A DNA stretch of 64,000 nt, taken from Denitrobaculum tricleocarpae (lineage in GTDB: Bacteria; Pseudomonadota; Alphaproteobacteria; Kiloniellales; Kiloniellaceae). Numbering within the stretch: position 1 is the stretch's first letter; every line of letters begins with the position of its first letter. A program made the position numbers and the translations under genes. Of the stretch, positions 18,090 through 23,163 are shown piece by piece. A model generated the notes under the pieces. It saw nothing but the letters and a program-made list of their open reading frames with translations. It was not told the origin of the DNA and made no database searches. The DNA is taken from assembly GCF_007004665.1 (NCBI RefSeq), contig NZ_ML660052.1:1-64000 (forward strand). Direction: 5' to 3'.

Positions 18090-18140
18090 GGGGTGAAGTG
18101 CCTTGAGTGCTTGCGTTCGTATCAGCGCGAGACCCCGCCC

Positions 18141-18364
18141 TTGAACCCGACCACGAAGGAACGCGAGATCCTGAAGCTCTTCTATGCAAACCCGGCCTGG
18201 TCTTCTCCCACGGTTGCATCCTCAAAAGCCGCCTGGAGCACTAACGAAGCCCCCCTGACCAATGTGGCGGATGTTTATGTGGGCAGCTTAAGGCGGAAGC
18301 TGAGCGAGCAGGGGAGAAGCTGCAGACGGGTAGAGGGGCAAGATATCGATTGAAGGCGGAGTGA
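18141..18364 (+). pseudogene. Decayed copy of the response-regulator C-terminal domain
   Basis: The frame reads TTKEREILKLF, then TNEAPLTNVADVYVGSLRRK, closely matching the C-terminus of the regulator at 13628 (AKEREILKLF; TNEDPLTNVVDVYVGRLRRK). Between these blocks the match moves to another frame (PGLVFSHGCILKS against PGRVFSRERILNS) and returns. After LRRKLSEQ it moves again (EKLQTGRGARYRL against DKLQTIRGAGYRL) and reaches TGA 18362-18364. Three frame changes and no receiver domain mark it as a remnant. Confidence 0.8.
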
Positions 18365-18402
18365 GAGTAGAGCGGCGCCTGGCTGGGGATAGGCCAGAAA
18401 GA

Positions 18403-18510
18403 TCAAACGAGCAAAGCGGGTTGTGTTGGGGTGTTCAGGGGGCGGTTGAGGGCGGTTTCGATGTGGGTGAGAGCGAGTGTGAGTTTCATCTGAAACCATT
18501 TGACGGTCTA
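18403..18510 (-). pseudogene. Possible remnant of a LysR gene 3' end
   Basis: Minus-strand frame TVKWFQMKL resembles the ATIKWLRESF near the C-terminus of the intact LysR at 14403. The string AACCATTTGA is identical in both. It lies 131 bp after the pseudogene stop; in the intact locus the same string lies 136 bp after the regulator stop. So the whole regulator/LysR junction may be duplicated and decayed here. The sequence match alone is weak. Confidence 0.35.
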
Positions 18511-18603
18511 ACTCCCCTTCTCAAAGCCAAACTCCCGGATCAAGAAGTCGACGGTTGCCTGGTCGCGCATCTTGCAGATAGTGCTCTGGTTCGCGAAGGC
18601 CTC

Positions 18604-19623
18604 CTATACGAACCAGCCCCGCATGGCATTCACACGATTAACGTAATTTGGTGCTGGCCTGTCCGCATGTGCGGGCGGCACAGCGATGATAGGAAGCAGC
18701 TTGTCCCTGAAATCAGCTAGGCCAGCATCCAAATTGTTGGTGCTCAGGTCTTGCTCCATCCGCCCGTTGCGGTGAACGCGGTAAGCAGCATCGAATGTTA
18801 CGAGACCTCGGTCATAAGCCCGGTGATGTAGCGCGCACAACGCGACCCCGTTCGACGTTTCATCTGTACTCTCGGGATGGGCTGCTGGTAAAATATGTGC
18901 GGCATCTAGAAGTCTAAGCTGCACACCGCACATCGCGCAGGCATGAGAATAGGCAGTCAGAACCCGGTCTTTAAAGTTAGCGTCCCTAAGAGCTTTCTTT
19001 GTGGATACAACAGCGTATCGGCGTGATTCGGGAACAATTGCCTCAATCTCTGCCTCGTCGATATTTTCAGGGTTCTCGCAGATTTCCGCTAGAAGTCGAA
19101 GCGTCTCATCCGATGATCCGCAGGCATGGAGTTCGTCCATGTAGCGCAGATACGTTCCCATATAGGCAGACTTCACCGCAAAAGCGACTTCCTCTTCACC
19201 TTTGAACTGGTGAGCCAGTCCGTTGATGTGAGCCGATTCAAGAGCCGGTTGCCGTATTTGGATAGACGGAGACCCTCCAAGCGGGCCGCTATGGCGGCTA
19301 ATGTCATAGGCAGCAAAAACACGCAGATCGTCACACCAGCCGAGGATTGCCGTTTTCCCGCCAACCTCTGGAACAAACCTCTGTCGCCCCTCGATCTCAG
19401 GCAGCCCTGTGACTTGTATCCGCCACTCATTCGGTAGGCTTGCGCGACCGCCAAATGTTAGATTCCAGATGTAGAGTCGTAACCTGAAGGATTTATCTCC
19501 ATCCATGATCTGATATGCAGCGGGGTGGGTGCGTTCTTCAGAAAGCCTTAGGAAGCTCTGCCCGCTTTGGTACAGAGATTCCTCGAATAGTTGAAACAGC
19601 GCAGGCTTTCGGAGTGGCGCCAT
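18604..19623 (-). CDS. HNH endonuclease, probable restriction enzyme
   Basis: 339 residues. The C-terminal third has a zinc-binding HNH motif: CAMCG (about 225-229), LDAAHILPAA (first His), SNGVALCALHHRAYD (Asn and final His, about 255-270). The N-terminal 200 residues are an unassigned domain that could recognise DNA. It is the last gene of a minus-strand run with a methyltransferase (3-bp gap) and an Mrr-type nuclease, which makes a restriction role very likely. G+C is visibly lower than in the urease genes, in keeping with acquisition. Confidence 0.83.
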   Translation of the reverse strand: MAPLRKPALFQLFEESLYQSGQSFLRLSEERTHPAAYQIMDGDKSFRLRLYIWNLTFGGRASLPNEWRIQVTGLPEIEGRQRFVPEVGGKTAILGWCDDLRVFAAYDISRHSGPLGGSPSIQIRQPALESAHINGLAHQFKGEEEVAFAVKSAYMGTYLRYMDELHACGSSDETLRLLAEICENPENIDEAEIEAIVPESRRYAVVSTKKALRDANFKDRVLTAYSHACAMCGVQLRLLDAAHILPAAHPESTDETSNGVALCALHHRAYDRGLVTFDAAYRVHRNGRMEQDLSTNNLDAGLADFRDKLLPIIAVPPAHADRPAPNYVNRVNAMRGWFV

Positions 19624-19626
19624 TCT

Positions 19627-20712
19627 CTACTCTGCAGCCTCGATGATCGTAACTTCTTTGGGTTCATCTTTTGGTTTCCGCATGTGCGCCGGACGTAGTT
19701 TGCCACCATCCTTGGGAAGGGGCGCAGATTCACGTTCATCACCGCCGTTCCAAAGAAGGCCTGGATGGGCGATCCGATAGTAGCCATCATCTTCTTTTTT
19801 CGAATTCTTTGCCTTAGGAGGTTCAACAGGCTTTACAAAGCGGCCTTTTGCGCCTTCGAGATATGACTCAACTAATTCAGCACAGATCCATCGCCTTCCT
19901 AGTCGTTCACAAACCTCTCCGGTAATGCAGCTTCCGCCAAAGGGGTCGAGCACGAGATCGCCAGGATCTGTCACCATTCGGATGAAATACTCAGGCAACG
20001 CCGCCGGAAAGCGTGCAGGATGCGCTTTGAGTCCCTGTTCCTTGCAATAGCGCATGTAACTGCTGTTGCTCTCGGTATTGGGTAGTGCAATCAAGTTCGG
20101 CGGAATGGAGGCCCCATTATCAATGGAGAACTTTTCACTAATGTCGTGACCTGACGGCCTGAGCTTTGCTTTGTAACCGTTACTCAAAAGACTTTTCATG
20201 CTGTCGCTGTAGGGCTGCAGGACGCGCCGATTGCTGGCCTTTGGCCACGGTGATTTGGACAACCACCAGACAGTGTTTATGCCGTCTTTCACGCGAATGC
20301 GACGCACATTTACCCATTCAGCAGGTGTCGGCAATTTTGACGGATTCCACCAATAAAACTCCTGAGAAAGATGAAAGCCGTACTCTTCACACAACATGAT
20401 GAGAAGTTTGAAGTGATAGAGGCTTCGCACTGGTAGTCCTGGTTTCCACGCACCGCCAAGATCTATGACAAGGCTGCCGTCCTCTTTCAGGATGCGATGG
20501 AACTGCTCTGCAAAACTCCGGAACCACTCCAGGTAAGCATCCTCTTGTTCGTTGCCATAATCTTTCTTTCGAGTCAGTGCAAACGGAGGACTTGTCACAA
20601 TCAAATTGACGGAGTCTTTTTTGCGCTGCTTCATCACCGCCAGACTGTCGGCGTGAAAAATCTTGCCGAGCTTTGTATTGTGGAAGACTGTCGGAGGTTC
20701 TTGTTTTGCCAT
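19627..20712 (-). CDS. Site-specific DNA methyltransferase, probably N4-cytosine, beta-class order
   Basis: 361 residues. Motif IV TSPPFALTRKKDYGNE is near residue 40 and motif I/SAM site LDPFGGSCITGEVCERLGRR near 255-275. Motif IV before motif I is the beta-class order, and TSPPF rather than DPPY points to N4-cytosine methylation, as in PvuII-type enzymes. A basic tail follows. It would protect the host site cut by one or both neighbouring nucleases. Spacing is 13 bp from the upstream nuclease gene and 3 bp to the downstream one, so it is one operon. The recognised sequence cannot be read from this. Confidence 0.9.
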   Translation of the reverse strand: MAKQEPPTVFHNTKLGKIFHADSLAVMKQRKKDSVNLIVTSPPFALTRKKDYGNEQEDAYLEWFRSFAEQFHRILKEDGSLVIDLGGAWKPGLPVRSLYHFKLLIMLCEEYGFHLSQEFYWWNPSKLPTPAEWVNVRRIRVKDGINTVWWLSKSPWPKASNRRVLQPYSDSMKSLLSNGYKAKLRPSGHDISEKFSIDNGASIPPNLIALPNTESNSSYMRYCKEQGLKAHPARFPAALPEYFIRMVTDPGDLVLDPFGGSCITGEVCERLGRRWICAELVESYLEGAKGRFVKPVEPPKAKNSKKEDDGYYRIAHPGLLWNGGDERESAPLPKDGGKLRPAHMRKPKDEPKEVTIIEAAE

Positions 20713-20725
20713 ATATTCGTCTCCC

Positions 20726-22090
20726 TTACAGATCGAGTTTCTTTAAGTTCATAGCATGACGCGCCTCGCGCTCGAAGGCCCGTATAACTGTAGCTGGGCT
20801 ATCGCTGATGTTGTGCAAGTCGCCCCCGTCCAGCATCACAATCGCAAGATTGGAGTCGGCCATGATCCTATTGGCGTAGCGCCTTGCTTCATTGCCGATA
20901 TCCCCTGTCGTGACCATCACGATGACATTGCTCTTCAGGAAATGTGTAAGGCCTACCTCTTTTGCTACGTCGTCAAGGGAGACACGCGCAGTGTTCTTAC
21001 ACTGTATCTGCCAGCGCGAAAACACTAGGCGCGCACTTTCAAAGACCAGATCAACCTCTGCCCCGCCGGTCTGGTTGGCGCGCAGGCGAGTGGCCACGTA
21101 AGTCATATCCAGGAGGCGCATAATCTTGAAGGCAAGCGCTTCGAGTGCTAATCCCGCTTTGTAACGATCTTTCTCTTTGATCTCTTCCAAAATATCGGAG
21201 AGCGGCGTGCGCAGTAGTGCAAGAAGCTTCGGATCGGTTTGCCCCTTTAACTGTTCCAGAAGCGGCTCGACAACATCTGCAATCAGCTTGTCGGTTGGTG
21301 CTACCTGAAACGGCTTTGCTCCGCGTCCGGTAGTCGTTTTGTCCGCCGTAATGTATCCCGCCTCAACCAGACTATGCAGAACCATCTTTGGCAGGCTCTT
21401 CTCAGGGAACTTGATACCGTAGGTAGCTGTTGCCAGTTTCACGATTTTATTCGCAGGCTGCGGATCGCGCTCTCCAGTATTGGCAAGCGCCCGCAAGAAT
21501 GTCCGCTGCTCAGGTGTAAAGTCCGCCAGAGCCTCGAACTCATCCGGATTAAGCCCAAGAATATCTTCGATGCGATGCGGATTAACCTGCCATCTACTCC
21601 CGACAAACACACCTGCTTTGGCAAGCCACAAGCGCATCATGCTCGGATGCTTACCGCCGGAGGGATAGTGCACGCCCCGCGCTGCAAGTCCCTCTCGAAG
21701 CGTTGTTAGCGTCACAACTTCACCTGCGGCCACCATGTCCTGAATGCAGCGCACAAGCGTCATACCGTGGAGATTTAGAAGGATATGTTTGGCAAACCGC
21801 TCATACAGAGATGGCTCATCATTCGTGAGCAGGAGCAGTTCCTGTCCAAACTCCGTCAAGGCCGCCTCCCGGTCGATGATCCCATATGCGATCATCCCTA
21901 GCTTGGTATTGTTGGCGAGTTTCCCTCGGTTGTACTCAGTAGTCTTGTGGTTATCGAAATAGGTCGCCCGCACGGCGTCCTCAAAGGCGTGCCAGTCACC
22001 GCCATGTTCATCAGCCATCTCCAGAACGCGAGCAAGCTCGATTTGAGAGGGGGAAAACTCGCTGCCGAATGGAAGATCGCTTCTTTTCAT
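20726..22090 (-). CDS. Mrr-type (PD-(D/E)xK) restriction endonuclease-like protein
   Basis: 454 residues. Winged-helix-like N-terminal and middle parts (about 1-290) are followed by a C-terminal nuclease domain: LALEALAFKIMRLL (about 325), catalytic Asp in GGAEVDLVFE, and WQIQCKNT (Q-x-K, about 375). This is the Mrr family core. It is the second gene of the restriction-modification operon and overlaps the stop of a 42-codon ribbon-helix-helix-like gene by 3 nt. It may be the main restriction enzyme, with the HNH protein as a second nuclease, or a subunit of a two-nuclease complex. Confidence 0.83.
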   Translation of the reverse strand: MKRSDLPFGSEFSPSQIELARVLEMADEHGGDWHAFEDAVRATYFDNHKTTEYNRGKLANNTKLGMIAYGIIDREAALTEFGQELLLLTNDEPSLYERFAKHILLNLHGMTLVRCIQDMVAAGEVVTLTTLREGLAARGVHYPSGGKHPSMMRLWLAKAGVFVGSRWQVNPHRIEDILGLNPDEFEALADFTPEQRTFLRALANTGERDPQPANKIVKLATATYGIKFPEKSLPKMVLHSLVEAGYITADKTTTGRGAKPFQVAPTDKLIADVVEPLLEQLKGQTDPKLLALLRTPLSDILEEIKEKDRYKAGLALEALAFKIMRLLDMTYVATRLRANQTGGAEVDLVFESARLVFSRWQIQCKNTARVSLDDVAKEVGLTHFLKSNVIVMVTTGDIGNEARRYANRIMADSNLAIVMLDGGDLHNISDSPATVIRAFEREARHAMNLKKLDL

Positions 22091-22215
22091 CTCTGACCCA
22101 CACTCAAGGTCGAGACATCATAGGTCTCTGCGATTGCTCTCAGGGCATTGTGATCGCTTTCGTCCAGACTGATACTTAATCCTACTAGTTTTTTGCCTAA
22201 TCTCGATTTTGCCAT
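22087..22215 (-). CDS. Micro-protein (42 aa), ribbon-helix-helix-like; probable controller of the R-M operon
   Basis: The frame from ATG 22215 to TGA 22087 encodes 42 residues, including LVGLSISLDESDHNALRAIA and ETYDVSTLSV. The beta strand followed by two short helices is the pattern of CopG/Arc-type RHH regulators. The second helix ends sooner than usual. The stop overlaps the nuclease ATG (ATGA), so the two are coupled. Its start has only a weak Shine-Dalgarno. A perfect inverted repeat lies 36 bp upstream. Acting as a repressor that sets nuclease expression is an inference. Confidence 0.6.
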   Translation of the reverse strand: MAKSRLGKKLVGLSISLDESDHNALRAIAETYDVSTLSVGQR

Positions 22216-22251
22216 AGCTTCACCATTTTGGTGTTTTCCGCACCATTAAAC

Positions 22252-22297
22252 CTCTATATCTAGCGGTGAGCAACGGTGACTTTGCCTAGATATAGAG
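22252..22297. promoter_or_regulatory. Perfect 12-bp inverted repeat, candidate operator of the R-M operon
   Basis: CTCTATATCTAG (22252-22263) and CTAGATATAGAG (22286-22297) are exact reverse complements separated by 22 bp, directly upstream of the RHH micro-gene. A smaller repeat, CACCA/TGGTG at 22221-22233, lies just before its start. Repeats of this size suit a small dimeric repressor. The A/T-rich arms may overlap the promoter. Confidence 0.6.
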
Positions 22298-22322
22298 ATA
22301 TCCACAAGATAATGCCAAGCTG

Positions 22323-22353
22323 AGGCCTATTGCATGCAGGCCTTTATGCATGC
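22323..22353. repeat. Short tandem repeat at the island border
   Basis: AGGCCTATTGCATGC (22323-22337) is followed at once by AGGCCTTTATGCATGC (22338-22353), two near-identical units between the end of ureG and the R-M operon. Cause unknown. Confidence 0.5.
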
Positions 22354-22426
22354 GTCTTAGGTCGACCAAGAAGCGATACTCGCACTGTTGGCACCGCATT
22401 TGAGAATAGGGTGCCATTCATTCAGC

Positions 22427-23163
<737 letters not shown>

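Follow-up and report, generated by a model that had tools for sequence, protein, structure and literature searches.

Restraint of restriction-modification (R-M) and other defence operons is best known for controller (C) proteins, which are helix-turn-helix (HTH) proteins, and for WYL-domain regulators. In the parts of a review that treat their regulation, the C gene appears, like the leader gene described here, as a small gene within the R-M operon near a repeat, and C proteins are set against the ribbon-helix-helix (RHH) regulators of toxin-antitoxin loci, which are strict repressors (PMC3874152). The same parts describe the RHH regulators of type II toxin-antitoxin loci (Omega, PaaR and ParD-like antitoxins) as repressors that bind their own promoter (PMC3874152). 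The WYL-domain proteins BrxR and CapW, as portrayed in portions of a second source, form one regulator family that represses several defence systems (PMC9122588). RHH repressors of the CopG/RHH_1 type (PF01402), such as CopG, ORF56 and the antitoxin CopA(SO), are associated with plasmid-copy or toxin genes. No report of RHH leaders at the head of R-M or other defence operons was recognised in the open-access literature, although one may exist.

Here we describe a small gene at the head of an R-M operon in a 64-kb stretch of DNA from Denitrobaculum tricleocarpae (the window), together with the family of leader genes to which it belongs. The leaders resemble CopG/RHH_1 repressors in their RHH_1, PDB and Foldseek matches but head R-M and defence operons, and the copy in the window fails the profile. 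They are RHH rather than HTH proteins, the intact relatives matching RHH_1, which separates them from C proteins. Whereas BrxR and CapW are multi-domain, ligand-responsive WYL proteins, a leader consists of a single RHH domain and a short tail. Nor is the arrangement that of a type II toxin-antitoxin pair: what follows the window leader is the Mrr_cat nuclease gene of an R-M operon, and toxin-paired RHH proteins were recovered only as weaker matches in the class-wide search (those examined had E values of 1e-7 or higher). By sequence, the intact leader family is best classed as a putative variant of the RHH autorepressors.

Results

The operon runs on one strand from the nuclease through the methylase to the MTaX1 and HNH gene, successive genes being separated by 13 and 3 nt (Table 1), and the nuclease and methyltransferase genes predicted from PF04471 and PF01555 stand together as in type II R-M systems. 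Each of the three genes has the same length as its counterpart on plasmid NZ_CP090156 of Roseivivax marinus, and the two nucleases share 85.7% identity. Within the taxonomic family, the nuclease was found in its own genome only (0 of 22 other genomes searched). Genomes of the genus differ in what lies behind ureG: where the window has the R-M cassette of ~4.4 kb, one genus-mate (G387), collinear on both sides by blastn, has ~143 bp between the flanks, and another (G386) has ~2.9 kb of other sequence. As judged from these comparisons, the R-M cassette is acquired. The final ~11 residues of ureG (22427-22460) are unmatched in the genus-mates (residues 1-235 of 246 aligned), as if insertion had replaced the gene end, and the other cassette junction carries a short ORF (18093-18353, + strand) in which a Trans_reg_C domain is recognised (E 2.2e-7).

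Table 1. Features of the R-M locus, in window coordinates
Feature	Position	Strand	Basis or remark
Acquired cassette	18096..22494	.	Absent at the same place in the collinear genus-mate (blastn)
MTaX1 + HNH endonuclease, 339 aa	18604..19623	-	PF20296, PF13391
DNA methyltransferase (N6/N4), 361 aa	19627..20712	-	PF01555 E 4.6e-40; PADLOC MTase_II
Restriction endonuclease, Mrr_cat, 454 aa	20726..22090	-	PF04471 E 4.2e-9
ATGA overlap, leader stop / nuclease start	22087..22090	-	Sequence; candidate translational coupling
Truncated RHH leader gene, 42 codons	22087..22215	-	A3 alignment; leader profile without the window row
Extra TGGTG half-site, 20 bp from the first	22221..22225	-	Sequence
Operator-like inverted repeat TGGTG-N7-CACCA	22229..22245	.	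Same alignment position in nearest relatives
Weak promoter-like pair TTGCTC-17-TTTAAT over the operator-like repeat	22245..22273	-	Inferred; TTGC...TTTAAT aligns with Roseivivax
Left arm of 12-bp inverted repeat, CTCTATATCTAG	22252..22263	.	Sequence; lineage-specific
Right arm (by coordinate) of 12-bp inverted repeat, CTAGATATAGAG	22286..22297	.	Sequence

The initial annotation of this locus had reported a 42-codon frame sharing ATGA with the nuclease start and a perfect 12-bp inverted repeat 36 bp upstream of that frame, all of which are present in the sequence. It had proposed that the frame encodes a small RHH protein that binds the repeat and represses its own operon, delaying nuclease expression after entry into a new host. 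On profile and substitution evidence, the frame is a real coding sequence homologous to RHH (CopG-type) proteins. A profile of 31 RHH leaders built without the window row recovered it at E 7e-9 among 1588 translated window pieces (next best 0.36); the value was E 4.5e-13 with a profile that included the window row, and in a whole-genome search with the profile lacking that row the frame did not reach E 1e-8. Pairwise, 15 of 36 residues are identical to the Roseivivax leader. Over 35 codons, pN/pS between the window frame and five relatives was 0.29-0.56 in frame versus 0.74-1.58 in the two other frames, so that the frame holds up in both conservation and coding bias. The relatives among themselves gave 0.15-0.48 over 35 shared codons, and set against this range the in-frame values for the window do not demonstrate relaxed selection on the remnant.

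In the A3 alignment the window copy keeps the strand and helix A but has lost the tail and the greater part of helix B, its frame ending at residue 42. It is 23-27 codons shorter than five neighbours yet retains the ATGA overlap, and in the DNA alignment with its nearest relatives there is one long gap in the leader, immediately 5' of the nuclease start codon. The strand position held by Arg in all 18 other aligned rows is Gly in the window. AlphaFold2 predicted a helix at residues 19-32 and a stub at 36-41, leaving the second helix incomplete, and a Pfam scan of the frame returned 0 families and no RHH match. With most of helix B and the strand Arg lost and no Pfam RHH match, formation of an RHH dimer is probably beyond the window copy; since the two defining features tested (Pfam RHH_1 and a complete second helix) are absent, it is not classed as a working RHH protein. 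The copy, known from one assembly, is probably a dead repressor, the remnant of a small RHH protein. A full-length family member acting in trans from elsewhere in the genome was considered as well and rejected, as no second member was found at E up to 1 using the profile with the window row, a search in which a very divergent member could escape first-look scoring.

To place this copy within its family, we compared 84 nuclease-family loci, made up of 80 kept from 101 genome relatives, 3 in viral contigs, and Roseivivax. An RHH leader lies upstream of 20 of these nucleases, a weak case (L036; E 0.58, failing Pfam RHH_1) being left out, and 64 have no counted leader. Presence and absence change 10 times on a quick version of the nuclease tree, from which L031, L066 and L084 are absent; this and the 64 nucleases without a counted leader argue that the leader is dispensable. 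The five rows closest to the window on that tree all have leaders of 65-69 aa. Roseivivax has a 65-aa leader at the same position with the same ATGA overlap, and a 4-bp ATGA-type overlap with the nuclease occurs in 11 of the 18 nuclease-family leaders with a placed end. Two of the 20 leaders are damaged: L049 has a frame change within its second helix, and at L066, which coincides with L005, a degenerate leader is in frame with a nuclease gene that itself contains a stop. One leader-nuclease pair (L090) is on an IMG/VR viral contig.

Pfam RHH_1 was matched above the curated cut-off by all six leaders scanned (L006, L012, L020, L027, L048 and L007). The AlphaFold2 model of one relative, L010 (mean pLDDT 80.4), has helices at 19-32 and 36-49 and no strand assigned in the monomer; on this model the strand-then-two-helices order of RHH proteins is counted as present in the intact family. 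Sequence matches of leaders in the PDB are 6iya, 7etr, 2k9i and CopG, and Foldseek placed 6iya at the top, with antitoxin CopA(SO) as the best fold match; the Foldseek matches are RHH proteins, none of them as good as E 0.001.

The sequence that recurs upstream of the leaders is TGGTG-N7-CACCA, found 19-31 nt before the leader start codon in the nuclease family. Counting the window, the exact form occurs in 5 of 23 stretches and a looser form, TG[GC]TG-N4-AAACA[CT], in 12 of 23 versus none of 63 leaderless loci. TGGTG also recurs as direct repeats 10 bp apart, with 8 pairs among 22 non-nuclease stretches and 3 among 21 from the nuclease family; in 500 shuffles, no spacing of direct repeats gave more than 2. 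When an operator-like pair is defined as either the inverted or the 10-bp direct arrangement with at most one mismatch within 150 nt of the leader, it is found upstream of 31 of 51 leaders (L151 duplicating the leader region of L138), versus 4 of 138 control stretches, which were taken from 600-1350 nt farther upstream, and none of the 63 nuclease loci without a leader; in the remaining 20 of 51 leaders it is missing within that distance. The upstream half-site has diverged in the window relative to its neighbours. A consensus scan upstream of the window leader returned neither promoter nor terminator, and GCATGCA and TGCATGC lie near each other in this region (22331-22356).

The 12-bp inverted repeat fares differently. 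Its arms are perfect and separated by 22 nt, and the window has no other perfect inverted repeat of 12 bp with a loop of 3-60 nt; 20 shuffled windows held a mean of 0.65 (range 0-3), and at least one such repeat arose in 5 of 3000 shuffles of 22091-22426. The repeat is therefore locally unusual, yet within chance for the whole window. It is absent in all 22 relatives checked, which argues against its being the operator of the leader family and the binding site that the initial annotation took it for, a role better suited to the recurrent TGGTG-N7-CACCA. As a terminator it was rejected because the scan found none, and as a repeated element because it occupies one genomic place, other matches being chance ones of 15-17 bases. 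Its right arm, on the coding strand, sits where the neighbours hold the upstream half-site. Inside the loop are two copies of CGGTG exactly 10 bp apart (22264-22278), which resemble degenerate half-sites in the other orientation. Judging from its distribution, the 12-bp repeat is probably not the control sequence of the family.

Leaders of this family are also found ahead of other defence genes. Among the matches listed, an R-M or defence gene comes directly after the leader at 17 of the 18 places on plasmids and at 16 of the 19 loci in genomes. On plasmids besides that of Roseivivax, the genes following these 17 are a methylase, restriction enzyme, dndC or HmaA-type helicase; 19 such places were collected, H20 lacks annotation, near-duplicates and others (e.g. 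H47-H49 and H51) were left out, and plasmid places besides L138 and L151 are close kin of one another. A class-wide search of 385 genomes gave at least 11 non-self leader matches below E 1e-10, with an R-M or defence gene next in 9 of the 11 listed. Their next genes encode SspA/DndA, PbeA, BrxA, two cytosine methylases, a type I methylase, a SIR2 protein, two Ppl-like proteins, a PurM-like protein and a small membrane protein. The Ppl matches of L105 (E 1.6e-13) and L106 (E 9.7e-12) are partial, and stops fall inside the matched stretch of both leaders. A further leader just under the cut (L109, E 5.4e-8) precedes a cytosine methylase. Across the phylum (398 genomes), at least 10 leader matches were found, two at places already known; seven of the eight new matches listed precede methylases or DrmD-like helicases, six of these called by PADLOC and one (L159) by its resemblance to L158, and the eighth accompanies an integrase-like ORF. 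Both the class-wide and phylum-wide counts are lower bounds, at most 15 candidates having been scored per genome.

Four leaders have no recognised defence gene next to them: L103 precedes small membrane proteins, L161 the integrase-like ORF, L150 hypothetical genes, and L100 a PurM-like (AIRS) gene that is not known as a defence gene. Upstream of that last gene, the RHH leader is accompanied by an exact TGGTG-N7-CACCA. The genes at L103, L159 and L161 were named from translations rather than a profile.

A contrast set of 16 weaker RHH matches (E 1.4e-7 to 6.1e-5; next ORF in 15) excluded L123, which is the degenerate leader of L066. Here the next genes were ParE or PIN toxins or unrelated genes. 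Pfam assigned ten of these next ORFs to ParE (four), PIN (two), T2SSE and NnrS, with two lacking a family; ten run through PADLOC yielded one marginal match (L121, E 9.8e-7), a T2SSE ATPase in Pfam.

Discussion

We consider it likely, from the sequence comparisons above, that the leader is a portable RHH autorepressor module heading defence operons, which has decayed in the window while the nuclease, methylase and HNH genes remain intact. An intact leader would be a 65-80-residue CopG-like RHH protein, most likely acting as a dimer. Most likely this dimer would bind TGGTG half-sites that cover the leader's promoter and the region of its start, arranged as an inverted TGGTG-N7-CACCA or as TGGTG every 10 bp, and in doing so would repress the defence operon that it heads, the first enzyme probably being translationally coupled to the leader through ATGA. 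The proposed small RHH autorepressor thus survives in part: the frame belongs to the RHH family and its intact relatives are probably autoregulators of their own operons, but the window copy is truncated, has lost the strand Arg and lacks a Pfam RHH match. Decay in this genome would comprise the loss of most of helix B and the tail, the change of the strand Arg to Gly, and divergence of the upstream half-site. Because the leader is a remnant and the genome search recovered no further member, the operon of nuclease, methylase and HNH genes is probably expressed free of this repressor, while the residual frame still reads into the nuclease start.

It is hardly credible that the 42-residue protein works as a dimer on the 12-bp repeat, repressing the operon and delaying the nuclease in a new host. 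The frame is a real RHH homologue and the repeat is unusual in local shuffles (5 of 3000), but the second helix is a stub, the strand Arg is lost and the repeat is missing in 22 of 22 relatives. Gene order also led us to reject delayed nuclease expression after entry. The methylase follows the nuclease by 13 nt on the same strand in the same apparent operon; repression would therefore lower nuclease and methylase alike, and a delay of the nuclease relative to the methylase does not follow. Negative autoregulation would be expected to give early expression and then shut-down rather than delay. The repeat might instead be a new operator for another host regulator, replacing the lost RHH control, a role to which the placement of one arm where neighbours hold the upstream half-site and its single occurrence in the genome would be suited. 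No such regulator was identified, however, and 0.65 such repeats are expected per window by chance, which makes this improbable.

Similarly improbable is a leader family of antitoxins neutralising the enzyme encoded behind them, as in type II toxin-antitoxin pairs. The leader is an RHH protein encoded by the first gene and overlapping the next, its best fold match is antitoxin CopA(SO), and more distant RHH matches precede ParE or PIN toxins; yet the genes that follow the leaders (methylases, sulphur-modification genes, helicases, SIR2) are unrelated to one another, so that a specific protein partner is ill-suited to them. That the short window frame is a mere translated leader handing ribosomes to the nuclease, with an inert product, is unlikely as a full account, though less so than the foregoing readings. 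In its favour, the frame has lost 23-27 codons relative to five neighbours while keeping the ATGA overlap, but such retention can be chance; the idea is compatible with decay of a portable autorepressor. Finally, an assembly or sequencing error concealing an intact gene might be suspected, given that there is one assembly and that the five nearest relatives are all full length. A local assembly gap would be insufficient, however, to explain the additional loss of the strand Arg and the divergence of the upstream half-site, and we regard such an error as very unlikely.

The systems found behind leaders are Mrr-type, type I and type II R-M, Dnd/Ssp, Pbe, BREX, DISARM-like, Hma and SIR2. More tentatively, and with some doubt, the TGGTG half-sites and RHH leader may form a portable regulatory cassette common to unrelated defence systems. 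As the half-site is common to them, a leader that enters a cell with one system could also repress others present there.

A small RHH leader with its recognisable TGGTG site, recurring ahead of several unrelated types of defence gene, would be a third and more compact form of defence control beside C proteins and the WYL regulators, as the latter are depicted in portions of their source (PMC9122588). The leader and site would also offer a sequence handle for finding defence operons, and the window, with a broken leader and intact enzyme genes, would be a natural test case. If the portable cassette holds true, it would amount to a defence-wide regulon in which loss of a leader, as here, would unleash one system.
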